A DNA stretch of 64,000 nt from positions 1-64,000 of the forward strand of contig NZ_JADEXQ010000009.1 in NCBI RefSeq assembly GCF_015207035.1, read 5' to 3'. This DNA is from Romeriopsis navalis LEGE 11480. GTDB taxonomy: Bacteria; Cyanobacteriota; Cyanobacteriia; Leptolyngbyales; Leptolyngbyaceae. The translations under genes were made by a program, and so were the position numbers. Below the pieces are notes generated by a model. The model did not search any database. It saw nothing but the letters and a program-made list of their open reading frames with translations, and was not told the origin of the DNA. Of the stretch, positions 15,491 to 29,820 are shown in pieces (the stretch's first letter is position 1; every line of letters starts with the position of its first letter).

Positions 15491-16453
15491 TCAGGCTAAA
15501 CAATTTGCGAGGTATTGCTGGATTTCGATCGGGTTAATCTTGTGTCCGATACAGACGAGTTGATTGGAAGGTTGGTCTTCCCAGGTCGAATCATCCAGAT
15601 GAAATCGCCGTCCACTCAGTTGGAAAACGTGCCGCGCTGGACTTTCCTCAAACCACAGAATCCCTTTCATCCGGTAGATGTTTACTGGCAATTGATTATC
15701 CAAAAAATGCTGAAATTTGCGCAGGGAAAATGGACGTTTGGACTGGAAAGAGACCGATAAATAGCCGTCGTTCTGCAAATGTCGCGGTTTTGGCTGATTC
15801 TCTGTTTCTGTGATCTCCAGAGGATAATTCTCGGACTGCGCCAGCTTCACGTCCAGAATTAGCGGCAGCGGAACTTCACCATGCTGCATATGCAAAATTC
15901 TGGCACCTTCTTTGGTTTCATGAATTTGCGTCTCGACTTTGCCCAAACGATCTGTTGTAACTAGATCCGTTTTGTTCAGTAGCGCAATATCGCCGTACAT
16001 AATCTGCTTCACCGCCGCTTCCCCTTGCTTCAGGGAGAAGTTCTCAGCATCGACAACGGTTAAAATACCGTCGACATAGGTCAGGTCCCGTAGTTCAGAG
16101 CCCAGAAATGTCAGGGCGATCGGGAGTGGGTCGGCCACCCCGGTGGTTTCTACGATCAGATAGTCCAGCTTTTCCGGCCGTGCCAACACTTCGTACACCG
16201 TGTTCGCCAAGCTGTCGTTGATCGTGCAGCAAATACAGCCATTGCTCAGCTCAACCATATCTTCCCCAACCGTCATCAACAGTTGACTATCGATATTGAT
16301 ATCCCCGAATTCATTGACCAGAACCGCCACTTTCAAATCCTGACGATTCTGCAAAATGCGGTTGAGCAAGGTCGTTTTGCCGCTGCCGAGAAAGCCTGTG
16401 ATGATCGTGACAGGCAATTTTTGATTGCGAACTCCATCCAGACTTTCTAGCAT
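15491..16453 (-). CDS. COG0523 (CobW/ZNG1-type) GTPase, metallochaperone
   Basis: The 320-aa protein has Walker A GFLGSGKTTLLN, the metal-binding GCICC motif, switch region VETTGVADPLP, the guanine motif NKTD, and a CobW C-terminal domain (FSLRKFQHFLD, YRMKGILWFEE). It starts 37 bp after the folE stop on the same strand, so both genes probably form one transcript under the Zur box at 17276. Zur-controlled COG0523 GTPases are thought to hand zinc to client enzymes during deficiency; Zn-dependent FolE is an obvious possible client. It lacks the His-rich insert of its paralogue at 21970. Confidence 0.9.
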   Translation of the reverse strand: MLESLDGVRNQKLPVTIITGFLGSGKTTLLNRILQNRQDLKVAVLVNEFGDINIDSQLLMTVGEDMVELSNGCICCTINDSLANTVYEVLARPEKLDYLIVETTGVADPLPIALTFLGSELRDLTYVDGILTVVDAENFSLKQGEAAVKQIMYGDIALLNKTDLVTTDRLGKVETQIHETKEGARILHMQHGEVPLPLILDVKLAQSENYPLEITETENQPKPRHLQNDGYLSVSFQSKRPFSLRKFQHFLDNQLPVNIYRMKGILWFEESPARHVFQLSGRRFHLDDSTWEDQPSNQLVCIGHKINPIEIQQYLANCLA

Positions 16454-16490: not shown

Positions 16491-17150
16491 TTAGTGGAAC
16501 TGGGGAGTATGGCGAATCAAGTCCATAAATTCCCGACGGGTGCGCGCATCGTCGGCAAAACATCCGCGCATCGCACTGGTGACAGTCCACGATCCCGGCT
16601 TTTGCACACCGCGCATGACCATGCACATATGGGTCGCTTCCACGACGACTGCGACTCCCTGTGGTTGTAGTAAGCCTTGTAATGCTTCGGCAATTTGATT
16701 AGTCAGACGTTCCTGCACTTGGAGTCGGCGAGCATACATTTCCGCAATGCGCGCTAGCTTCGAAAGGCCAATGACTTTACCGTTGGGGATATAGGCAATA
16801 TGGACACGGCCCAAAATCGGCAGAATATGGTGCTCACAGGAGCTGAATAAATCAATGTCCCGCACCAGTACCATTTCATTGGCATCTTCATGGAAAATTG
16901 CCCCGTTGAGCAATTCATCTAGGGACTGATTATAGCCAGAAGTCAGGTGTTGTAGTGCTTTAACAACGCGCTTCGGCGTATCGATAAGGCCTTCACGATC
17001 GGGGTCCTCACCCAGGCCAATCAGCAATGTGCGGACGGCTTGCTGCATTTCTTCATCGGAAACGCGGGGTTTAGCACTGGTGGAGATTTGGGCCAATGTT
17101 TCGTTAGCGGTTACGTTCGCTAAAGATTCTGCAGGAATTTGTGCTGTCAT
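16491..17150 (-). CDS. folE: GTP cyclohydrolase I (Zn-dependent type IA)
   Basis: The 219-aa protein contains all FolE-I signatures: [32 protein letters not shown] with zinc Cys/His ligands, and [16 protein letters not shown] supplying the other Cys. It converts GTP to dihydroneopterin triphosphate, the first step of folate/pterin synthesis. It is preceded by a Zur-type palindrome (17276-17290) and followed by a COG0523 gene. The usual Zur-regulated isoform is the zinc-independent FolE2; here the zinc-dependent form itself appears to be induced, together with a putative zinc chaperone. Confidence 0.95.
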
Positions 17151-17275: not shown

Positions 17276-17290
17276 TAAGAATCATTCTCA
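17276..17290. promoter_or_regulatory. Zur box upstream of folE-cobW
   Basis: TAAGAATCATTCTCA is a 7-1-7 palindrome-like match to the Zur consensus TGATAATnATTATCA, weaker than the four others in the island. It lies about 125 bp upstream of the folE ATG. Fur recognises a similar sequence, so regulator identity is inferred from the gene content. Confidence 0.6.
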
Positions 17291-17397: not shown

Positions 17398-18123
17398 TTA
17401 TCGCCCAAAGCCCTTGGGGCTTGTCTGGCAGGCGACTTGCTGAAACTGAATCTGTCCTGATTCTGGATAAAACAGCGTATAGGTTGCCTGTTCACCACCG
17501 CCGACATTGCCAACACCGACTATATGTTTAGTCGGCAGTTCACGGGATTGATTAGTGGCAGGCTGATCAAGCGTTTGCACCGTTGACTGGATTTGTCCCA
17601 TGGCAATCTCATAATCGAAGGTGAGTCCCGATCGACCACAAAATAGATAATTTGCTTCCATCCGCTGCAGTCGATCGACCAGCGTGACCACGGGAGTATC
17701 GGGTGTGAGCACATCATCGACCCCCAAACTACTGCCGTGGGCCAGTAAGCAATCCAGCTCAAAAATGCCAAATTCCCATGATTGGATTTGACGGACTAAT
17801 TCCCGTGGAACGGCATCCCAAAGGGTTTTAGTCATAGCTGCACCGTATTGTTCAATCAGCGCCGTCGGCTCCCCGGTACGACCTAAACCGTGCAAAATCA
17901 ACAGTTGCTCTTCCCACCAGCCTTGGCATACGGCGACCCGAGGTTCTCCCGGTCGACGTTGGTATAATCGCTTGATGAGTGCGGCATTATCGCCTTGCGG
18001 CCCAATCACATCACCCAGAATAAACATTTCATCGATCGCCAAGCGTGATTGCCGCACATCCGCTAAAACTGCCTCATAGGCTCGTAAATTTCCAACGATG
18101 CCTGATAATATTGCCCAAGCCAT
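17398..18123 (-). CDS. Degenerate metallophosphoesterase-fold protein (pseudoenzyme)
   Basis: The 241-aa protein aligns with calcineurin-like phosphoesterases of the DUF-type Metallophos_2 group. However, motif I is SGIVGN (residues 7-12) instead of SDIHGN, motif III is GWWEE instead of GNHDE, and the GHTH motif is replaced by GRSG. Only GD (residues 37-38) and HGS survive. It therefore lacks most metal ligands and is unlikely to be a phosphatase. It is last in the leftward znuA operon, 41 bp after the paralogue at 18165-19001. Role unknown; a regulatory or partner subunit is one possibility. Confidence 0.75.
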   Translation of the reverse strand: MAWAILSGIVGNLRAYEAVLADVRQSRLAIDEMFILGDVIGPQGDNAALIKRLYQRRPGEPRVAVCQGWWEEQLLILHGLGRTGEPTALIEQYGAAMTKTLWDAVPRELVRQIQSWEFGIFELDCLLAHGSSLGVDDVLTPDTPVVTLVDRLQRMEANYLFCGRSGLTFDYEIAMGQIQSTVQTLDQPATNQSRELPTKHIVGVGNVGGGEQATYTLFYPESGQIQFQQVACQTSPKGFGR

Positions 18124-18164
18124 ATCGTACTCCCAGCGCTAATCAATCCTCTTGTTTGCCAATC

Positions 18165-19001
18165 CTAGCGTTCGCAAATATGGCTGGGATCGTCCGCTCG
18201 TTCCGCATATTCCCAGCCGCGGGCTAAACGCCATGCAAAGATTTCGGGCAAACCTTTTTCGATAATTGCTGCACAAGTCTTTTGGTAATCGTACTCAACT
18301 TCTCGCAGCGTTACGTTCTGCGTTTCTGTTTCATAAATTACATAGGTCGCATTGGGGCGTCCATGCCGAGGCTCACCGACTGACCCGGCGTTGACGATCT
18401 TTTTCAATGATGTTGTAAATTCTTGCGTTATGGTTTTCTGTTTTGCTTTCTGATTCGATTTAACGGTGACAGAGTTGACTTTGACCGTAAATTGGCCTTG
18501 ATCGAACTGGCGCACATAGGGAATGTGGGTATGGCCGCAAAACAGGACATCTGCCTCGGTTGCCATCACCCGCTCCATTGCCGCAAATGCATCCATTTCG
18601 GGCATGAGATACTCATGCTGATTGTGCGGACTGCCATGCACGAAACAGAGATTATCGTGGCGCAGTGTCAGGGGTAGTTGGGCGAGGAATTCCCGGTTCT
18701 CGGGATGCAGGGCTTGATCAGTCCAGACATGGGCTGCTTTGCCCCGTCGTTCGGCGATTAATGATGGATAGCTGCATTCACAGGCATTTAGCCCATCGAC
18801 AATATCTTCATCCCAGCACCCCTGCACCGTCGGAATATCCAGCGATCGAATCATTTCGACGACGGCATTGGGATGGGGACCGTAGCCCACCAAGTCACCG
18901 AGGCAAAAGATTTGTTCAACCTGCTGGGCATCAATATCACATAACACTTCATTCAAGGCTTCATAGTTACCATGAATGCAGGACATAACAGCAATTTTCA
19001 T
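18165..19001 (-). CDS. Metallophosphoesterase family protein with Cys-substituted metal site
   Basis: The 278-aa protein keeps the fold and several motifs: GDLVGYGP (D36), VHGSP and CGHTHIP. The first metal ligand Asp of SDIHGN is Cys (SCIHGN, C8), and Asn-His of GNHDE are Cys-Trp (GCWDE, C62, W63). H10, D36 and the later histidines remain. Two acquired cysteines at ligand positions suggest a site tuned to zinc or to sensing rather than standard Mn/Fe hydrolysis; this is inference. It lies between the CobW-like gene (17-bp gap) and its degenerate paralogue in the Zur-controlled znuA operon. Confidence 0.8.
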   Translation of the reverse strand: MKIAVMSCIHGNYEALNEVLCDIDAQQVEQIFCLGDLVGYGPHPNAVVEMIRSLDIPTVQGCWDEDIVDGLNACECSYPSLIAERRGKAAHVWTDQALHPENREFLAQLPLTLRHDNLCFVHGSPHNQHEYLMPEMDAFAAMERVMATEADVLFCGHTHIPYVRQFDQGQFTVKVNSVTVKSNQKAKQKTITQEFTTSLKKIVNAGSVGEPRHGRPNATYVIYETETQNVTLREVEYDYQKTCAAIIEKGLPEIFAWRLARGWEYAERADDPSHICER

Positions 19002-19018: not shown

Positions 19019-19786
19019 TTAACTTACAGATGGGGATTGCAGCATTGATTGAATTTGGGATTGGTAATATTCAATTAAGCGATCGTCTAAACTGGCATCT
19101 TTGAGGCTTTGTTGTAGGGTGCGATGATTCACCTCGCCGATAATGGATAAGCCACTAAAGCGTTGGGGACGGCCTTGGAGATTACGGGTAATTTCTAGTT
19201 CTTCATAATCCGTTTGGACAGAGCCTGCAACGTAGTCGAAGTAAAGTGGATAGCCTTCGATCGTTTCTAATAATGCCTTCGCCCGCTGGACTTCGCCGTA
19301 GGCCCCTTGGGTGATCTCGGTCCAGAGCATGGCTAAACTCGGCGGATCGAGGATTTCCCCAGTTAAGTCGATGGACTGCGACGGTGATGTGCTGCTGCTG
19401 CCGTGGCCACCAGCGATCGTCCGACTGGCCCAGCCCACATCCACGGCCAAGTTCGAGGCTTGAATCCATAGGTACTCGGCTGGCGTGGCGGTAAGTTCTG
19501 GTAGGGTTGCACGATCGATATCACTCGGGAGTTCAATCAATAGATGCTGCACTTGTTCAGCCAGTTTCGCTAACTCCCCATGGCTGGGTGCAGCGCGTAA
19601 AATCCTGAGCCCAGGGCAAACATAGCTTAAGTAGGTTGCGTCGATCGTGGAGGGTTCGATTGACTGTGCATCAGCGGCATAATGCCAGTAGGCACAGGGT
19701 ACGGCTAGCGAATCGATGTGATCGCGTATCCAAGTCGTTTTACCGGCTCCAGTCGCACCCGCGACCCAGGTAATTTGTAATGACAT
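19019..19786 (-). CDS. Divergent CobW/G3E-like P-loop protein lacking the CxCC motif
   Basis: The 255-aa protein begins with Walker A GATGAGKTTWIRDH. Its last 90 residues resemble a CobW C-terminal domain (GEVQRAKALLETIEGYPLYFD, then RFSGLSIIGEVNHRTLQQSL). The GCICC metal motif and the NKxD guanine motif are absent, and the LLIELPS segment only loosely recalls the VETTG switch. It is 13 bp after znuA and 17 bp before the phosphoesterase gene, so co-transcribed. I read it as a degenerate member of the COG0523/G3E class whose nucleotide and metal specificity have changed. Family assignment is moderate. Confidence 0.65.
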   Translation of the reverse strand: MSLQITWVAGATGAGKTTWIRDHIDSLAVPCAYWHYAADAQSIEPSTIDATYLSYVCPGLRILRAAPSHGELAKLAEQVQHLLIELPSDIDRATLPELTATPAEYLWIQASNLAVDVGWASRTIAGGHGSSSTSPSQSIDLTGEILDPPSLAMLWTEITQGAYGEVQRAKALLETIEGYPLYFDYVAGSVQTDYEELEITRNLQGRPQRFSGLSIIGEVNHRTLQQSLKDASLDDRLIEYYQSQIQSMLQSPSVS

Positions 19787-19799
19787 AGGACGACTAAAA

Positions 19800-20858
19800 T
19801 TATGGTACAGGTGGCGGCGAGGGCTGACCGCCTAAGCCTTCGACAATTGCCTTCGTATTGGCGACTAACATCTTTTCATAGGTTTCAGCACCCGACCCGG
19901 CGTCGCCCAAACCATCACTAAATAATTGTTTCTCCGACACTTTAACTTGAGCGTCCTGAGCCAGTGCTTGCATCATTGCCAGATTCGCAGTGCTCTCGGT
20001 AAAGACCGTCGGTACTTGACTGGCTTTGACATCGTCAACTAATTCCTTGATGCGCGTGGGTGTGGCTTTGACATCGGTACTAATGCCTTGCAGTGCACCT
20101 TCGATCGGAATACCATAGGCCGCGCCATAATAGGCCAGCGCTTCATGGGTTGTGACTAGCTTGCGTTGCTTGGCCGGAATTGTGGCAATTGCCGTTTTAA
20201 TCCAAGTATCGATTGCCGTCAGTCGATCGATGATTTGTTGTGCATTTTTGGCATACACCGCTTTATTTTCTGGCGATGCCTGGGTGAGTTGCTGTTGGAT
20301 GACCTTGACCATCGCAATGCCATGCTGGGCATTATGCCAAACGTGGGGATCGGCTTCTGCTGATGCGGCGTTGGCTGACTTTTTCGCTTTGTCGTGGTCA
20401 TGATCATGGTCGTGACCTTCTTCTTTCGCATGATCATGGTCATGTCCGCCTTGAAGTGGCTGCGCGACTGCTTGCTCATGCACCGCAATTTTTTGCACTG
20501 ACTCGGGGGCTGACGCAATCAGCTTAATAATCCCTGGTTCGAATCCATAACCACCGTAGAGGACGAGTTTAGCGGTATCAATGGCTTTACGATCGTCTGG
20601 CGTGACTTGGTAAACATGGGGATCGACTCCGGCTTCGATTAAACAATTGATCTGAGCCGTTGACTGAGCAATCCGCTCCGCCAAGTCACAGAGGACGCTG
20701 TAGGTCGCAACCACCTGCGTTTGTGCTGCAGTATTCGATTTTTCAGCGGTGCGATTATCTGTAGAGCTAGTTGGGGACGAGCTACATCCAGCGAAGCCAC
20801 CACCCACAACTGTCAGAATTGTGGCCAAGAAAAATAGTCGAGAGAAGAGAGAACGCAT
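19800..20858 (-). CDS. znuA: Zinc ABC transporter substrate-binding lipoprotein ZnuA
   Basis: ATG 20858 gives 352 aa. The N-terminus has a lipoprotein signal ending GGFAGC. The mature ZnuA fold shows VVATYSVLCDLAERI, AGVDPHVYQVTPDDRKAI, a His/Asp-rich loop (GGHDHDHAKEEGHDHDHDHDK), DPHVWHN, TTHEALAYYGAAYG and FTESTANLAM, matching metal-ligand and structural motifs of cluster A-I binding proteins. It captures zinc in the periplasm for ZnuBC, which are not in this window. A near-perfect Zur box is 57 bp upstream. It heads a four-gene leftward operon with a CobW-like protein and two phosphoesterase-fold proteins. Confidence 0.93.
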   Translation of the reverse strand: MRSLFSRLFFLATILTVVGGGFAGCSSSPTSSTDNRTAEKSNTAAQTQVVATYSVLCDLAERIAQSTAQINCLIEAGVDPHVYQVTPDDRKAIDTAKLVLYGGYGFEPGIIKLIASAPESVQKIAVHEQAVAQPLQGGHDHDHAKEEGHDHDHDHDKAKKSANAASAEADPHVWHNAQHGIAMVKVIQQQLTQASPENKAVYAKNAQQIIDRLTAIDTWIKTAIATIPAKQRKLVTTHEALAYYGAAYGIPIEGALQGISTDVKATPTRIKELVDDVKASQVPTVFTESTANLAMMQALAQDAQVKVSEKQLFSDGLGDAGSGAETYEKMLVANTKAIVEGLGGQPSPPPVP

Positions 20859-20914
20859 TGCAGGCGGCACTTACATCTTAGAGAGGTTTTTAAGGATCTC
20901 ACACTAACATAAAA

Positions 20915-20929
20915 TGATAATCGTTATCA
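20915..20929. promoter_or_regulatory. Zur box upstream of the znuA operon
   Basis: TGATAATCGTTATCA, a 7-1-7 palindrome with A/T flanks extending the symmetry (AAAA...TTTT). It lies 57 bp before the znuA ATG and about 165 bp before the rightward smtA ATG, so it could influence both. Confidence 0.85.
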
Positions 20930-21969: not shown

Positions 21970-23142
21970 CTAATGGCTATAGCTGAAATGAGTTGATGTC
22001 GGATGCGGCGACTTTGCATGACAATTAGCGAGCTGATGGCGAATTATCGTAGGCTCAAGATTCCGTCCAATCACAACAACTTGATTTTTGCGTTGTGCCG
22101 TTGGCCATTGGTCCGTATCTAGCTGATACCGCTTGCCCGTCAACTGGAAAATGTGACGTGATGGAATATCCTCGAACCAAAGAATGCCTTTTGCGCGAAA
22201 TACATCGACGGATAGCGCTTCTAGAAATTTCTGAAATGCGACGATCGAAAACGGCTGATCACTTTCGTAGGCAATCGAGATAAAGCCGTCTTGAGTTAGA
22301 TGATCAGAATGATGGTGGTGATGTTCGTGGTCATGAGGATGATCATGGTCATGATGGTGGGCATGACTGTGATCGGCACTGTGGTCATGCGAATCGTGCC
22401 CATGGGTATGATCAGAATGGTGGTGGCGATGGTTATCGGAATCAGTCGCCGATCGTTCAATCTCTTCCTGAATCAACCCCGCATAGGCGTCAGTATCGGC
22501 ACCACCCACATCCAGTAAAGCCGATAGGGGTACGCGGCCATGCTGTGACTGCAAGATTCTCGCGCCAGCTTTAATTTCATGAATAGTTACTTCTACTTCA
22601 GAGACCTTAGCCGCATCTACTAAGTCCGTTTTATTCAACAAAATAATATCGCCATAGGTAATCTGATTAAATGCAGCCTCGCTCTGAAAGTGTTCTGGCG
22701 TAAAAGTTTCCGCATCGACTAAAGTGATCACGGAATCTAAGCGGGTGAAATCCCGCAAATCAGTCCCGACGAACGTCAACATAATTGGCAGCGGATCGGC
22801 AATGCCCGTGGTCTCAATTACCAGATAATCAATTTGTTCTTCCCGTGCCATGACGTCATATACCGCATCGACCAAACTGTCATTGATCGTGCAACAAATG
22901 CAGCCATTGCTTAGCTGCACCATATCTTCGTCAATCGATACCAAAAGCTGGCTATCAATATCAATATCGCCAAACTCATTGACCAAAACCGCCACTTTCA
23001 AATTCTGGCGGTTACTGAGAATATGATTCAGCAGAGTGGTCTTACCACTACCCAGAAACCCTGTGATAATCGTGACCGGCATACCGCGCTTCGGCAACTG
23101 GAGGGTTGTCTGCTCCTGATGTTCAGCCGATAAATTGACCAT
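21970..23142 (-). CDS. COG0523 GTPase with His-rich metal-binding insert
   Basis: The 390-aa protein shows Walker A GFLGSGKTTLLN, GCICC, VIETTGIADPLP, NKTD and a CobW C-terminal domain (FSIVAFQKFLE, FRAKGILWFED). A long His/Asp-rich segment (about residues 240-285) is typical of zinc-storing or zinc-handling G3E GTPases such as YeiR/ZNG1 types. A perfect-type Zur box lies upstream, shared with the divergent zur gene. Its likely job is GTP-driven zinc delivery during deficiency. It is paralogous to the protein at 15491-16453, which lacks the His-rich loop. Confidence 0.93.
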   Translation of the reverse strand: MVNLSAEHQEQTTLQLPKRGMPVTIITGFLGSGKTTLLNHILSNRQNLKVAVLVNEFGDIDIDSQLLVSIDEDMVQLSNGCICCTINDSLVDAVYDVMAREEQIDYLVIETTGIADPLPIMLTFVGTDLRDFTRLDSVITLVDAETFTPEHFQSEAAFNQITYGDIILLNKTDLVDAAKVSEVEVTIHEIKAGARILQSQHGRVPLSALLDVGGADTDAYAGLIQEEIERSATDSDNHRHHHSDHTHGHDSHDHSADHSHAHHHDHDHPHDHEHHHHHSDHLTQDGFISIAYESDQPFSIVAFQKFLEALSVDVFRAKGILWFEDIPSRHIFQLTGKRYQLDTDQWPTAQRKNQVVVIGRNLEPTIIRHQLANCHAKSPHPTSTHFSYSH

Positions 23143-23225: not shown

Positions 23226-23240
23226 TGATAATCATTATCG
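23226..23240. promoter_or_regulatory. Zur box between cobW and zur
   Basis: TGATAATCATTATCG matches the Zur consensus at 14 of 15 positions. It is 83 bp upstream of the leftward cobW and 87 bp upstream of the rightward zur gene, implying control of both and autoregulation of zur. Confidence 0.85.
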
Positions 23241-23327: not shown

Positions 23328-23732
23328 ATGAAACATACCTTAACTGACCCGCCGAAACTAACCCGGGCACAGCAGGCGGTTCTGGATTTATTGCGCGATG
23401 TGTCCCAGGCCATTGCCGCACAAGATTTGTTCATGATGTTGCGACAAACACGTTCAATTGGCTTGGCGACGGTTTACCGATCGTTAGAAACTTTAAAGAC
23501 GCGGGGTTTAGTCAAATGCGTTACTGGACAACCGGGTGAGGCGCTGTACAGTTTAGTCGGACAAGACGTGCACCACCTCAAATGCCTATCCTGTGATCAA
23601 TCAGTGCAATTGGAAAATTGTCCATTGTCCGGAGTGACACAAGAACTTCAGACGACTCAGCAATTCAAAATTTACTATCACACACTCGACTTTTTCGGTG
23701 TTTGTCCTGATTGTCAGCGTTCACAACAGTAG
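23328..23732 (+). CDS. zur: Fur-family regulator, zinc uptake repressor Zur
   Basis: The 134-aa protein has the Fur winged helix (LTRAQQAVLDLLRDV, SIGLATVYRSLETLKTRGLV) and a metal-binding dimerisation half with HHLKCLSCDQ and FFGVCPDCQ. These two CxxC pairs are the structural zinc site of the family. Its neighbours (ZnuA, COG0523, metallothionein) and five surrounding palindromes identify it as Zur (FurB) rather than Fur or PerR. It represses zinc-uptake genes when zinc is sufficient, and likely represses itself through the box at 23226. Confidence 0.92.
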   Translation: MKHTLTDPPKLTRAQQAVLDLLRDVSQAIAAQDLFMMLRQTRSIGLATVYRSLETLKTRGLVKCVTGQPGEALYSLVGQDVHHLKCLSCDQSVQLENCPLSGVTQELQTTQQFKIYYHTLDFFGVCPDCQRSQQ

Positions 23733-25333: not shown

Positions 25334-25348
25334 TGATAACGATTATCA
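25334..25348. promoter_or_regulatory. Zur box between the TonB-like gene and znuA2
   Basis: TGATAACGATTATCA, a 7-1-7 palindrome placed midway between the leftward start at 25245 and the rightward start at 25423. It probably controls both genes. Confidence 0.85.
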
Positions 25349-25422: not shown

Positions 25423-26442
25423 ATGTTCCGTCCTCGCAAAATTCCATCGGTCGCAGTGTGGTTGCTTACGGGTTTGACGCTGGGTACGGTTGCCCATGTC
25501 GATGTGGCGATCGCCCAAGCTAGTAGTAAGCCGAAAGTGGTTGCGACGAATGCGATCCTTTGTGATCTGGCAAAGCAGATTGCGAAGAATAGTGTGGAGT
25601 TGACTTGCCTGATGGAACCAGGACAAGATCCCCACCTCTACGAAATGCGGCCTGCCGATCGTCGGGCGATCGAGCAAGCAAAGCTGGTGCTTTATGGCGG
25701 GTATCGTTATGCTCCAGCGATCGAAAAGGCCATCAAGGCAGCGAATAACGGCTCCACTAAGGTGGCAGTTTATGAAATTGCTACACCAAAGCCCCGCAAA
25801 AGCAGTGGTCATCACCATCATGGCGAAGAAAAAGGAAAGGGTCATGACCATGATCACGACCATGACCATAGCAAAGAGAAGAAAGCTGAGCCGAAGGTTG
25901 CTGACGCCCATATTTGGCACAATGTGAAAAACACGCGCGCAATGCTGAAAGTACTGCGTCGCAACCTGATCAAAATCCAGCCCAAGTCGACGTTTCAGTA
26001 TATCGATCGGACTAAAGCCTTGAATGATGAGCTGAAGCGGCTCGACGAATGGATTCAAGCTCAGGTAAAAACCGTGCCCGACGATAAACGGGTACTGATC
26101 ACCAGTCATGATGCTATGGGCTACTACGCAGATGCCTATGGCTTCAAGGTTCAGAGCGCTCTAGGGGCGATCAGTACTGAGGAGCGACCTTCAGCGAAGC
26201 AAGTTAAGCTCGTGGTTGATGCTGTCCGGAAGTCTGGGGTGAAGACTGTTTTCGCCGAGACAGCTTATAAGACTCGGCTGATTGAAATCATGGCCCGTGA
26301 AGCCGATGTGAAAGTAGCAGAGAAACGCTTGTTTGTTGAAGGGTTGGGGCAGCCAGAAAGTGGTGCCGATACCTATCAGAAAATGATGCGGCACAACACC
26401 TGCGTCATCGTCACTGGACTTGGCGGCAAATGCCAGTCCTAA
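25423..26442 (+). CDS. znuA: Second ZnuA-type zinc-binding protein, secreted form
   Basis: The 339-aa protein has a Sec signal peptide (ending AIAQA) rather than a lipobox. ZnuA motifs follow: VVATNAILCDLAKQI, PGQDPHLYEMRPADRRAI, a His-rich loop near residues 126-152 (SGHHHHGEEKGKGHDHDHD), DAHIWHN, ITSHDAMGYYADAYG and FAETAYKTRL. It would be a soluble periplasmic zinc carrier, paralogous to the lipoprotein at 19800. A Zur box lies 75 bp upstream. A His-rich porin gene follows on the same strand after a hairpin. Confidence 0.92.
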   Translation: MFRPRKIPSVAVWLLTGLTLGTVAHVDVAIAQASSKPKVVATNAILCDLAKQIAKNSVELTCLMEPGQDPHLYEMRPADRRAIEQAKLVLYGGYRYAPAIEKAIKAANNGSTKVAVYEIATPKPRKSSGHHHHGEEKGKGHDHDHDHDHSKEKKAEPKVADAHIWHNVKNTRAMLKVLRRNLIKIQPKSTFQYIDRTKALNDELKRLDEWIQAQVKTVPDDKRVLITSHDAMGYYADAYGFKVQSALGAISTEERPSAKQVKLVVDAVRKSGVKTVFAETAYKTRLIEIMAREADVKVAEKRLFVEGLGQPESGADTYQKMMRHNTCVIVTGLGGKCQS

Positions 26443-26453
26443 TCATTCATCCT

Positions 26454-26487
26454 TGCCTTGGAACTTAGTTCTGGGGCAAGGCATTTT
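26454..26487 (+). terminator. Hairpin between znuA2 and the porin gene
   Basis: TGCCTTG and GAAC pair with GTTC and CAAGGCA with a five-base bulge, followed by TTTT. This intrinsic-terminator-like structure lies 11 bp after znuA2 and may make porin expression partial read-through. Confidence 0.6.
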
Positions 26488-26539
26488 CCACTGCTAATTT
26501 TCCATTGCTATATGCATTTCGTGTGAGGAGATTATTTCC

Positions 26540-28300
26540 ATGTCTAAGCATTCTTTGTCCCAGCGTTTTGGGCCTCAACATTCGCAACTCAAGCAGCAGT
26601 TGATTAGCCCTCTGTTAGTGGGTGCTAATCTTTTGTTAGCCGCTGTCGCAGCGCCCAGTGCCATTGCACAGTCAACGATGACCACGATTGATCAACTGAG
26701 TCGCGATCGTCCAAATTCCATGGGGCAGGTCACATCAGTTTCCCAACTGTCCGATGTGCGGCCGACTGATTGGGCCTTTCAATCAATGCAATCCCTAGTC
26801 GAACGCTACGGTTGTATTGCGGGCTATCCTGACCGATCGTTCCGAGGGAATCGGGCGATCACTCGCTTTGAGTTTGCCGCAGGGATGAATGCTTGTCTCG
26901 ATCGCATTCAGCAATTGATCGGCGTATTACAAGATGATCTGGTCAAGAAGGAAGATCTCGCAACAGTCCAAAAGCTGCAATCAGAATTTGCGGCGGAGCT
27001 AGCGACGCTGCGGGGTCGCGTCGATGCGGTAGAAGCTAAAACTGCAACATTAGAGAAACAGCAGTTCTCGACCACCACTAAGCTCTACGGAGAAGTCGGC
27101 TTTTCTGTCAGTGGCGCTTTGGGGGGCGATAAAGCTGATGGCAGTGGTGACCCCCTCCAGGAAAGCACAGTTTTAAATAACCGGGTACGTCTATTCTTCA
27201 ATAGCAGTTTCACCGGCAAGGATCTGTTAATTACGCGTCTTGATGCGCTCAATTCCATTCCTTTTGGTCCTGGCGAGGAGGGATTCCCCAACGTCACGGG
27301 CACCAGCATGAGTCGTCTGGCCTTTGATGAGGACAGTGGCAACTCGGTGCGAATTGGTAAGCTGTTCTACCAGTTTGGTGTGGGTAAATCAGCCCATAGT
27401 GAACACGACCACAGCAAGGATAAAAAAGCAGAAGGTGATGATGGCCACGGACATGGTCACGGTCACGGACATGGCAGCAAGAATCGCCTCACAGTCTCGA
27501 TCGATGCTGTTGGTGGTGAATTCAATGAAAACTTTGCCAATCTGAATGAGTACTTTTCCGAAGAACTGACCGGGGCAATTTCCCGCTTTGGTCGGTTTAA
27601 TCCGATTTACTACCAAGGTTTGGAAGGTACAGGTGCTTCGGTTAACTACGAACTAAGTGAAAAAATCACCCTATCGGCGGGTTATCTCTCACCCACAGCC
27701 GATAGTCCCAATGACAAAGAGGGCTTGTTTGATGGTTCGTTTGCCGCTCTGGCGCAGCTGACCATTGAACCCGTGGAAGATGTACGGCTGGCATTTACCT
27801 ATGCACGTTCCTTTTTCCCCGGAGGTTCGGCGGTCGTTTCCGGTGAGACCGGCAGCGAATTCTCCAATGAACCATTTGAGGAGGCCGCAACCGCAGCCGA
27901 TAACTTTGGTATTCAGGCCAGCGCAAAAATCAGTCCGGCATTTACCCTCTCTGGCTGGGCGGGTTTAACCCGTGCCACTGCCCAATCAAATGACGGTGCA
28001 GTACAGGAAGGAGATGACGCAAGCATCTTTAACTGGGCAGCCACCTTTGCTTTCCCAGATTTTGGCAAGCGCGGCAACCTGCTTGGCTTTATTGTCGGTC
28101 AGCCCCCACGGGTAACGCGCAATGATGTCGCTGGGCGTGAAGATGGAACGTCCGCTTGGCATTTGGAAGCAATGTATCGCTATAAGGTGAATCAGAATAT
28201 TTCTGTCACACCGGGCTTACTCGTGATTCTCAATCCAGAACACAACAGTAATAATGACACCATCTTGGTTGGGACAATTAAAACTGTGTTCCAGTTCTAG
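26540..28300 (+). CDS. SLH-OprB family outer-membrane porin with His-rich loop
   Basis: The 586-aa protein has a signal peptide (ending AIAQ), an SLH domain (about residues 70-135, LSDVRPTDWAFQSMQSLVERYG, GYPDRSFRGNRAITRFEFA), a coiled-coil segment (about 140-175) and a C-terminal OprB-type beta-barrel ending in Phe. This is the cyanobacterial SomA/iron-uptake porin layout, in which SLH anchors the barrel to peptidoglycan. An insert near residues 285-315 contains HSEHDHSK and a GHGHGHGHGHG run, absent from ordinary members and placed in a probable barrel loop. With znuA2 just upstream, a zinc-admitting porin is the natural inference. Confidence 0.85.
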   Translation: MSKHSLSQRFGPQHSQLKQQLISPLLVGANLLLAAVAAPSAIAQSTMTTIDQLSRDRPNSMGQVTSVSQLSDVRPTDWAFQSMQSLVERYGCIAGYPDRSFRGNRAITRFEFAAGMNACLDRIQQLIGVLQDDLVKKEDLATVQKLQSEFAAELATLRGRVDAVEAKTATLEKQQFSTTTKLYGEVGFSVSGALGGDKADGSGDPLQESTVLNNRVRLFFNSSFTGKDLLITRLDALNSIPFGPGEEGFPNVTGTSMSRLAFDEDSGNSVRIGKLFYQFGVGKSAHSEHDHSKDKKAEGDDGHGHGHGHGHGSKNRLTVSIDAVGGEFNENFANLNEYFSEELTGAISRFGRFNPIYYQGLEGTGASVNYELSEKITLSAGYLSPTADSPNDKEGLFDGSFAALAQLTIEPVEDVRLAFTYARSFFPGGSAVVSGETGSEFSNEPFEEAATAADNFGIQASAKISPAFTLSGWAGLTRATAQSNDGAVQEGDDASIFNWAATFAFPDFGKRGNLLGFIVGQPPRVTRNDVAGREDGTSAWHLEAMYRYKVNQNISVTPGLLVILNPEHNSNNDTILVGTIKTVFQF

Positions 28301-28508: not shown

Positions 28509-28523
28509 TGATAATGATTCTCA
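28509..28523. promoter_or_regulatory. Zur box upstream of the flavoprotein gene
   Basis: TGATAATGATTCTCA matches the Zur consensus at 13 of 15 positions. It lies 85 bp before ATG 28609, just after the porin terminator. Confidence 0.75.
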
Positions 28524-28608
28524 TTCCTGGGTGATTATCCAACTGCGGTGCCTCATCCCGCAACCGTTAGCCCCAGATCATTCTTTATCCCTAAACTTCT
28601 CTCTCCCA

Positions 28609-29820
28609 ATGAAAGTGCTTGATATTGCCGTGATTGGCGCCGGTCCCCATGCGCTGACTCTAGTGCTTCACCTGCTGCAAAAACGCCGTGGCTGGCACGA
28701 TCGTATCCGGGCATTTGATCCCAGTGGCACTTGGCTCCACCAATGGCAGCATCAGTTTGCTGCACTTCAGATTCCCCATCTCCGCTCTCCGATCGTGCAT
28801 CATCCTTGCCCAAATCCCTTTGCCCTACGTCAGTTTGCCGAACTGCGACCCGAGGAACTGCATGCGCCATACGATTTGCCAGGGACACAACTGTTTAATG
28901 ATTTTTGTGATCACTTAGTGCAAACCTCGCAGCTCCAGGATCAGGTGGTGCCTGAGGCGATCCGTGGATTAGAGTACGATCGCCTCCGCCGGCGGTTTCA
29001 TTTGCAAACGAGTCAGCGGGAAACCGTGAGTGCAAAGCGGGTGGTTTTAGCTTGTGGCGGTGGGACTGCAGCTTGGCCGCACTGGGCGAAAGGTATACAG
29101 CAGAGCAGTTATCCGCCCGATCGGTTGCAGCACAGCAGCCAGGTTGATTTACGCGAAACCAAGTTGAGTGGGCAGCATGTGCTAATTGTTGGCAGTGGTT
29201 TAACCAGTGGGCATCTGGCGATCGGAGCATTACGGCAAGGGGCAACGGTCACAATGCTGGCGCGACGATCGTTTTACGCCAAGCTATTTGATGCGGACCC
29301 CGGCTGGTTGGGGCCAAAGCTTTTGCGCGGATTTAATGCCGAACCTTGCTGGCAGACGCGCTGGCATCAAGTGACGACGGCACGTAACGGTGGTTCATTG
29401 ACACCAACTGTGCTGAGGCATCTGCGCCGATATGCTAAAACGGGTCAACTACAGCTTCAAGAAAATTGCATCGTACAGTCAGCTCGCTGGCAAGAAAATC
29501 ACTGGAATATCAGTTGTCATAACGAGAAAGTAATCCAATCTGACTACATTTGGGCAGCGACTGGAAGCAACATCAACATTTCATCTCAGCCATTGCTGAA
29601 ATCAATCGCTGAGCAATTACCGATACAAACTATAAATGGCCTGCCTGTATTAACCCAAAATCTGCGTTGGGGTGACATTGAACTGTATATCATGGGGGGA
29701 TTAGCCGCATTACAAATTGGCCCCACCGCCCGAAATCTATCGGGGGCGAGGATGGCAAGCGATCGGATTGTCGATGCTTTGGCTAAACCGCGACGCTATC
29801 AGCCATTAATTGCCGCCTGA
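28609..29820 (+). CDS. FAD/NAD(P)-binding protein, SidA/lysine N-hydroxylase-like
   Basis: Start taken at ATG 28609 (MKVLDIAVIGAGPHAL), giving 403 aa; an upstream frame adds 26 unlikely residues overlapping the promoter. It has an N-terminal FAD site VIGAGPHALTL, the FDPSGTWLHQW segment, LRSPIVHHP, a second Rossmann motif IVGSGLTSGHLA (NADPH) and a late IWAATGS motif. The order resembles flavin-dependent N-hydroxylating monooxygenases of the SidA/IucD group and related oxidoreductases. The substrate is unknown. The Zur box implies induction in zinc deficiency, raising the possibility of a metallophore-type or redox role; this is inference. Confidence 0.75.
   Translation: MKVLDIAVIGAGPHALTLVLHLLQKRRGWHDRIRAFDPSGTWLHQWQHQFAALQIPHLRSPIVHHPCPNPFALRQFAELRPEELHAPYDLPGTQLFNDFCDHLVQTSQLQDQVVPEAIRGLEYDRLRRRFHLQTSQRETVSAKRVVLACGGGTAAWPHWAKGIQQSSYPPDRLQHSSQVDLRETKLSGQHVLIVGSGLTSGHLAIGALRQGATVTMLARRSFYAKLFDADPGWLGPKLLRGFNAEPCWQTRWHQVTTARNGGSLTPTVLRHLRRYAKTGQLQLQENCIVQSARWQENHWNISCHNEKVIQSDYIWAATGSNINISSQPLLKSIAEQLPIQTINGLPVLTQNLRWGDIELYIMGGLAALQIGPTARNLSGARMASDRIVDALAKPRRYQPLIAA

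Follow-up and report, generated by a model that had tools for sequence, protein, structure and literature searches.

The 64-kb window, i.e. the whole stretch of Romeriopsis navalis LEGE 11480 DNA that was analyzed, contains an operon on the minus strand that begins with znuA and continues with a gene for a P-loop protein and two genes for metallophosphoesterase (MPE) homologues, here called MPE1 and MPE2. The operon is surrounded by further zinc-linked genes and by Zur-box-like sites, as follows.

15491 to 16453, minus strand: CobW/COG0523 GTPase (PF02492), a recurrent neighbour
16491 to 17150, minus strand: folE, GTP cyclohydrolase I (TIGR00063, E 2e-82), a recurrent neighbour present in 21 of 61 well-covered loci
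17276 to 17290: Zur-box-like repeat upstream of folE-cobW
17398 to 18123, minus strand: MPE2 (241 aa), degenerate MPE homologue, by homology to MPE1 and without Pfam match
18165 to 19001, minus strand: MPE1 (278 aa), metallophosphoesterase fold (PF12850, E 5.8e-24)
19019 to 19786, minus strand: P-loop gene (255 aa), shortened, COG0523/CobW-like
19800 to 20870, minus strand: znuA, first gene of the operon (PF01297, E 7.4e-76)
20915 to 20929: Zur-box-like site, an inverted repeat (TGATAATCGTTATCA) located 44 bp ahead of the znuA start
21970 to 23142, minus strand: second CobW/COG0523 GTPase, with a His-rich linker (PF02492)
23226 to 23240: Zur-box-like repeat in the interval that separates cobW from the fur/zur-type gene
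23328 to 23732, plus strand: FUR-family regulator, probably Zur (PF01475, E 3.4e-18)
25334: Zur-box-like site upstream of the second znuA
28509 to 28523: Zur-box-like repeat TGATAATGATTCTCA, perfect, upstream of the FAD gene
28531 to 29820, plus strand: FAD/NAD(P)-binding oxidoreductase, with the perfect repeat upstream

The intergenic gaps in the order znuA, P-loop gene, MPE1, MPE2 are 13, 17, and 41 bp, in line with a preliminary description that had placed a gene pair within the znuA operon. Both members of this pair are real, but the unit is at least a trio, because the COG0523-like P-loop protein has to be included. The P-loop gene had been overlooked, as had the Zur-box-like site upstream of znuA and a C74-x-C76 motif in MPE1. 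Beyond MPE2 lie folE and cobW, and on the other side of the operon the second cobW, the FUR-family regulator, the second znuA, and a gene for an OprB-type porin. The latter two (25423-28300), with the Zur-box-like site at 25334 ahead of them, encode proteins with His-rich stretches, and the porin contains an SLH domain; together they possibly form an outer-membrane zinc route. The nearest orthologues were found in Leptolyngbya-type genomes.

By profile and by fold, MPE1 belongs to the metallophosphoesterases (PF12850/PF00149). The AF2 model (pLDDT 78.5) had its best Foldseek match with 3rqz (E 1.8e-21), and the matches included the SapH Ap4A hydrolase 3qfm; the CxC loop (65-76) is of low confidence, and the model places no metals. 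The complete ligand set of the family (DxH, GD, GNH[DE], H, GHxH) is not present, but CxH and GCWD occur instead. The motifs of MPE1 are SCIHGN, GD36, GCWDE, H122-GS, and GH157TH159, and thus Cys occupies two canonical metal-ligand positions: C8 replaces the first Asp, and C62-W63 replace the Asn-His of GNHD, with W63 at the place of the general-acid His. The open reading frame and these residues, including the retained H10, D36, HGS, and GHTH, are as they had been described.

The exchanged residues turned out to be fixed. In 150 of 150 cyanobacterial MPE1 orthologues, C8, H10, D36, C62, W63, H122, H157, and H159 were invariant, which excludes chance or a sequencing error as the origin of C8 and C62 and answers the question, raised in the preliminary description, of whether the Cys pair is conserved in homologues. 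C74-x-C76, 12-14 residues past C62, was likewise invariant in all 150, and GCWDEDIVxGLxACxCSYPS is among the best-conserved stretches of the protein. Four further Cys were found in at least 147 of the 150 orthologues, C155 and C276 in all of them and C33 and C243 in almost all. Identity across the class was 57-78%, with more than 100 near-invariant residues, genomes of 1.6-1.9 Mb included. The pattern used for locus collection contained QGCWDEDI and was therefore biased to C62; a whole-protein genome search gave the same result. A first phylum-wide scan for Cys-type CxHxN motifs had too low a specificity. Orthologues with Asp or Asn at the two positions and without a link to zinc, which would have spoken against the original proposal, were looked for, and the search came out negative.

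The standard ligand assignment of the family has two metal positions that share one Asp. Applied to MPE1, it would yield the sites C8/H10/D36/H159 and D36/C62/H122/H157, each with one Cys, two His, and the shared Asp. Such an S-N2-O ligand set is typical of Zn(II).

MPE2 is very different. Its motifs are SGIVGN, GD38, GWWEE, H129-GS, and GRSG, and only two of seven ligands are retained, namely those that correspond to D36 and H122; the counterparts of H10, H157, and H159 are also lost, and Gly, Val/Glu, Trp, Arg, and Gly are found at the ligand positions. W70 is invariant in MPE2, and C162 is present in most of the proteins. A Pfam search of MPE2 gave no match, and its membership in the metallophosphoesterases follows from the homology to MPE1 alone (25% identity, E 3e-11). 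The sequences support the view that MPE2 is a conserved pseudoenzyme and a tandem duplicate of MPE1, which agrees with the earlier suggestion of an inactive partner stripped of nearly all ligands. A gene for a SAM-dependent methyltransferase homologue occurs in 22 loci (e.g., L043:6819-7519), in several of them in a gap of about 745 bp between MPE1 and MPE2, and also in the zinc cluster of Anabaena variabilis.

The P-loop protein had YjiA as its top PDB match in a profile search (hmmsearch, E 0.0012), and its C-terminal half aligned to the C-terminal part of CobW (hhalign, 90.7%). The AF2 model (pLDDT 90) had Zn-bound YjiA 4ixm (E 3e-7) and 1nij as top Foldseek matches. In the alignment of the P-loop proteins, the Walker A motif GxxGxGKT is invariant and a CobW_C-like C-terminal domain is present; neither the CxCC metal motif nor any other conserved Cys motif was found in it, and Pfam gave no family match, cobW included. 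In nearly every locus, MPE1 is immediately preceded by the P-loop gene, with a median gap of about 30 bp. MPE2 usually follows directly after MPE1, and in picocyanobacteria the stop and start codons overlap. Among 390 genomes of the class, strong matches to MPE1 were found in 144, the P-loop gene in 151, MPE2 in 155, and all three in 137 (phi 0.91, 0.92, and 0.86). Judged from these patterns, the three genes behave as a single unit that is gained and lost jointly. In one locus (L113, 8249-9832), the P-loop gene and MPE1 form one open reading frame of 527 aa; this was not taken as proof of an interaction, because a frameshift in the C-terminal part of the P-loop protein is the probable cause.

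The relationship to zinc was quantified in the window and across the loci. With at most one mismatch, TGANAATNATTNTCA occurs at exactly five sites in the 64 kb, whereas 0.38 were expected, and none of 100 shuffles reached five. All five sites are located upstream of zinc-linked genes, i.e. the znuA operon, folE-cobW, cobW/fur, the second znuA, and the FAD oxidoreductase gene. By all outward signs, the window is a zinc regulon. Within the 300 bp that precede the P-loop gene, a Zur-box-like site was found in 53 of 123 loci, versus 5 of 123 random segments; about 57% of the loci have no box close upstream of this gene. Over all loci, 70 exact box matches were found, compared to none in the reversed control. 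At least one of cobW, folE, hemB, thrS, hisI, znuA, or fur was present within 6 kb in 42 of the 61 well-covered loci (5 kb or more to either side, without the picocyanobacteria). Such neighbours were present within 1.9 kb in 61 of 149 loci but in only 1 of 15 controls, and that one was itself an MPE2 locus. In the 13 picocyanobacterial loci, the zinc genes are not adjacent to the module, and a Zur-like box is kept in 5 of them. In 31 of 98 loci, the P-loop-MPE1 operon and a gene for an FAD/NAD(P) oxidoreductase are divergently oriented within 1.5 kb of each other, with a box between them in 26. The oxidoreductase is a possible fourth partner; it contains no conserved CxxC, and its family matches were weak only.

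Taken together, the zinc linkage of the unit, which had been proposed from the single locus, is well supported by neighbours, Zur-box-like sites, and co-occurrence. The three genes form a conserved unit in cyanobacteria, some of the smallest genomes included, and this unit is probably controlled by zinc starvation. The Zur regulon of Anabaena and Synechococcus PCC 7002 contains hemB2, thrS2, folE2, COG0523, and znuABC (PMC6103462, PMC4628125). In the accessible part of the literature, no paper was found that joins the Zur regulon, cyanobacteria, and a metallophosphoesterase, and none of the papers found described the MPE pair as a member of the Zur regulon.

Published expression data exist for Synechococcus PCC 7002, where a zur mutation as well as TPEN derepresses G0131 and G0132, but not the "phosphoesterase" genes G0129 and G0130 (PMC4628125). 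G0131 is a remnant of the P-loop gene, and G0132 is the FAD gene. On pAQ7 of this strain (L164:2217-3988), only 166 aa of the P-loop protein are still encoded, an unrelated open reading frame takes the place of MPE1, and MPE2 is a fragment of 112 aa; in PCC 7117 and 73109, the module is intact. The lack of induction of G0129 and G0130 is therefore explained by the decay of the module in PCC 7002, and the RNA-seq results were rejected as an argument against Zur control of the phosphoesterase. The derepression of G0131 speaks for control of the unit's first gene by Zur. As PCC 7002 keeps the Zur regulation with MPE1 deleted, the unit is dispensable in this strain.

The closest non-cyanobacterial relatives in the plasmid collection belong for the most part to arsenic operons, which were found in Paraclostridium, Pedobacter, Hymenobacter, Adhaeribacter, Flammeovirga, and Rubrobacter. 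Most of these relatives have D8, N62-Y63, and CGC at 74-76, and Cys74-x-Cys76 of MPE1 aligned with the CGC of the ars-operon proteins, as in the Car1 type; the Asp and Asn ligands of the Car1 type are replaced by C8 and C62. The Paraclostridium-type protein is reported to be related to the arsenate reductase Car1, whose Cys74 and Cys76 are described as essential for arsenate reduction (PMC12124457). Maximum-likelihood analysis united MPE1 and MPE2 in one clade (100/98) inside the CxC group (90/73), with separate subclades for MPE2 (100/100) and MPE1 (86/56); the two are thus tandem duplicates that go back to a Car1-like protein. In the simplest history, a Car1-like gene would have been duplicated in a cyanobacterial ancestor, and one copy would have gained C8 and C62 while the other lost the metal site. 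A search of 36 genomes from non-photosynthetic members of the phylum yielded no MPE1; the 12 best matches that were retrieved all have Asp8/Asn62 and no CxC. Phages yielded one weak match with canonical residues. None of the annotated loci showed ars genes close to MPE1, and zinc-linked genes take their place. A further MPE family with CGC, from other cyanobacteria (GNYDxAIGxxxRDCGCGYTD; L166, L169, L171), has degraded DxH and GHxH motifs and is distinct from the MPE1 family. A Pedobacter ars operon (L158:3001-4512) contains two tandem metallophosphoesterases, one with and one without CxC, paralleling MPE1-MPE2, and similar uncharacterised pairs have been reported for Mucilaginibacter (PMC10652896).

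What could the unit do? We tentatively favour, with a probability of about 0.4, the reading that it is a Zur-controlled module induced by zinc starvation, in which MPE1 would be a zinc-handling protein served by the P-loop partner. MPE1 would bind zinc, or another thiophilic metal, tightly in its thiolate-modified dimetal site and act as a zinc-holding or zinc-transfer protein and not as a phosphatase. The COG0523-like protein encoded upstream would load or unload it, the ligand-less sister MPE2 would be its structural partner or scaffold, and a redox change of the CxC pair could gate metal release. This reading gains from the absence of C8 and C62 in MPE2, in the Car1-type proteins, and in the canonical relatives; the 13 picocyanobacterial loci without adjoining zinc genes and the roughly 57% of loci without a box count against it, as do the dispensability of the unit in PCC 7002 and the low confidence of the CxC loop in the model. 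Its boldest version, a new class of zinc-handling machine in which the MPE fold would have left phosphate chemistry and become a thiolate dizinc carrier or store with a dedicated COG0523-like loader, a pseudoenzyme twin as stabiliser, and a CxC release switch for survival of zinc scarcity, picocyanobacteria included, is doubtful. The preliminary reading had rightly recognized the Cys pair, the inactive partner, and the zinc ties, but it had missed the CxC motif and the Car1-type, arsenic-operon ancestry; because of these two, a role in thiol redox chemistry must be taken seriously as an alternative. MPE1 might be a Car1-like enzyme in which the dithiol C74/C76, next to the Cys-modified dimetal site, reduces an oxyanion or a different substrate when zinc is scarce, with electrons from thioredoxin or from the Zur-linked FAD/NAD(P) oxidoreductase and with MPE2 and the P-loop protein as assembly factors. 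The position of the CxC, the placement in the tree, the reported necessity of the two Cys in Car1, and the divergent FAD gene in 31 of 98 loci are all in accord with this. However, the regulation indicates zinc rather than arsenic, ars genes are missing from the annotated neighbourhoods, C8 and C62 set MPE1 apart from the Car1 ligands, and the FAD protein lacks a conserved CxxC and strong family matches. Such a reductase is the strongest competing explanation, if slightly less probable; the present evidence does not separate it from zinc handling, and the preferred reading is accordingly rated only a little higher.

The other explanations carry less weight. That MPE1 stays a phosphoesterase, e.g. 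a SapH-like nucleotide or dinucleotide hydrolase that uses a thiophilic metal pair like Dbr1 to cleave a zinc-stress nucleotide, with MPE2 as regulatory subunit, would fit the PF12850 fold, the retention of most ligands, and the match to SapH, and Dbr1 exemplifies that one Cys ligand is compatible with catalysis. Yet Asn62 and the general-acid His63 are both gone, in contrast to the canonical relatives that were compared, which makes this unlikely. A zinc sensor or signalling pair, in which the thiolate site would read zinc and another protein would be controlled via MPE2 without turnover, is more unlikely still: pairing with a pseudoenzyme and the resemblance of the S-N2-O set to the reported sensory site of cyanobacterial Zur (PMC9337993) are in its favour, but neither protein has a DNA-binding or signalling domain, and zinc is already sensed by Zur. 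Finally, the ligand loss of MPE2 and the remnants in PCC 7002 could be viewed as signs of functionless genes in decay, with residue changes due to drift. The degree of conservation of MPE1, even in genomes of 1.6-1.9 Mb, already contradicts this view, and its probability is minimal.

Several aspects are of general relevance. The unit, conserved and apparently not described before, comprises three genes that probably take part in the response of cyanobacteria to zinc starvation, and it is retained in genomes of 1.6-1.9 Mb, where few genes persist unused. MPE1 contains a natural Asp-to-Cys plus Asn-to-Cys swap in the metal sites of a widespread enzyme, and as the ancestor is traceable, a joint change of metal choice and chemistry is testable. 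In addition, MPE1 is a candidate dedicated client of a COG0523-like protein, a large family whose clients are mostly unknown, and its residue pattern suggests a zinc-handling or redox protein that has so far escaped study.

A comparison with known systems underlines both the relationships and the differences. The Anabaena and PCC 7002 Zur regulon shares the neighbours of the unit, hemB2, thrS2, folE2, COG0523, and znuABC. Among the COG0523 zinc GTPases (YjiA, ZagA/YciC, ZNG1), YjiA is matched by the P-loop partner in profile and structure, as is the C-terminal part of CobW, but the partner is shorter and lacks both the conserved CxCC and a Pfam cobW match. The lariat debranching enzyme Dbr1, likewise a metallophosphoesterase, has a Cys in place of the first Asp ligand. 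In contrast to MPE1, which alters both residues, Dbr1 retains the Asn and His of GNH[DE], and it belongs to another family and other organisms. The closest solved structures by sequence and fold are Sphaerobacter thermophilus 3rqz and Streptococcus SapH (3qfm); where MPE1 deviates, 3rqz has Asp and GNHD, and neither of the two structures is linked to zinc genes here. The Car1-type proteins (Rufibacter tibetensis Car1, Paraclostridium Orf1) share with MPE1 the fold family, 34-39% identity, the CxC at 74/76, a GNYD-type loop, and H10/D36/H122/H157/H159, but they have Asp8 and Asn62 and an arsR/acr3/arsM context, whereas MPE1 has Cys8, Cys62, Trp63, zinc genes, and Zur-like boxes. In summary, MPE1 is a member of the metallophosphoesterase fold and a sister of the Car1-type proteins, with a ligand set unlike both.
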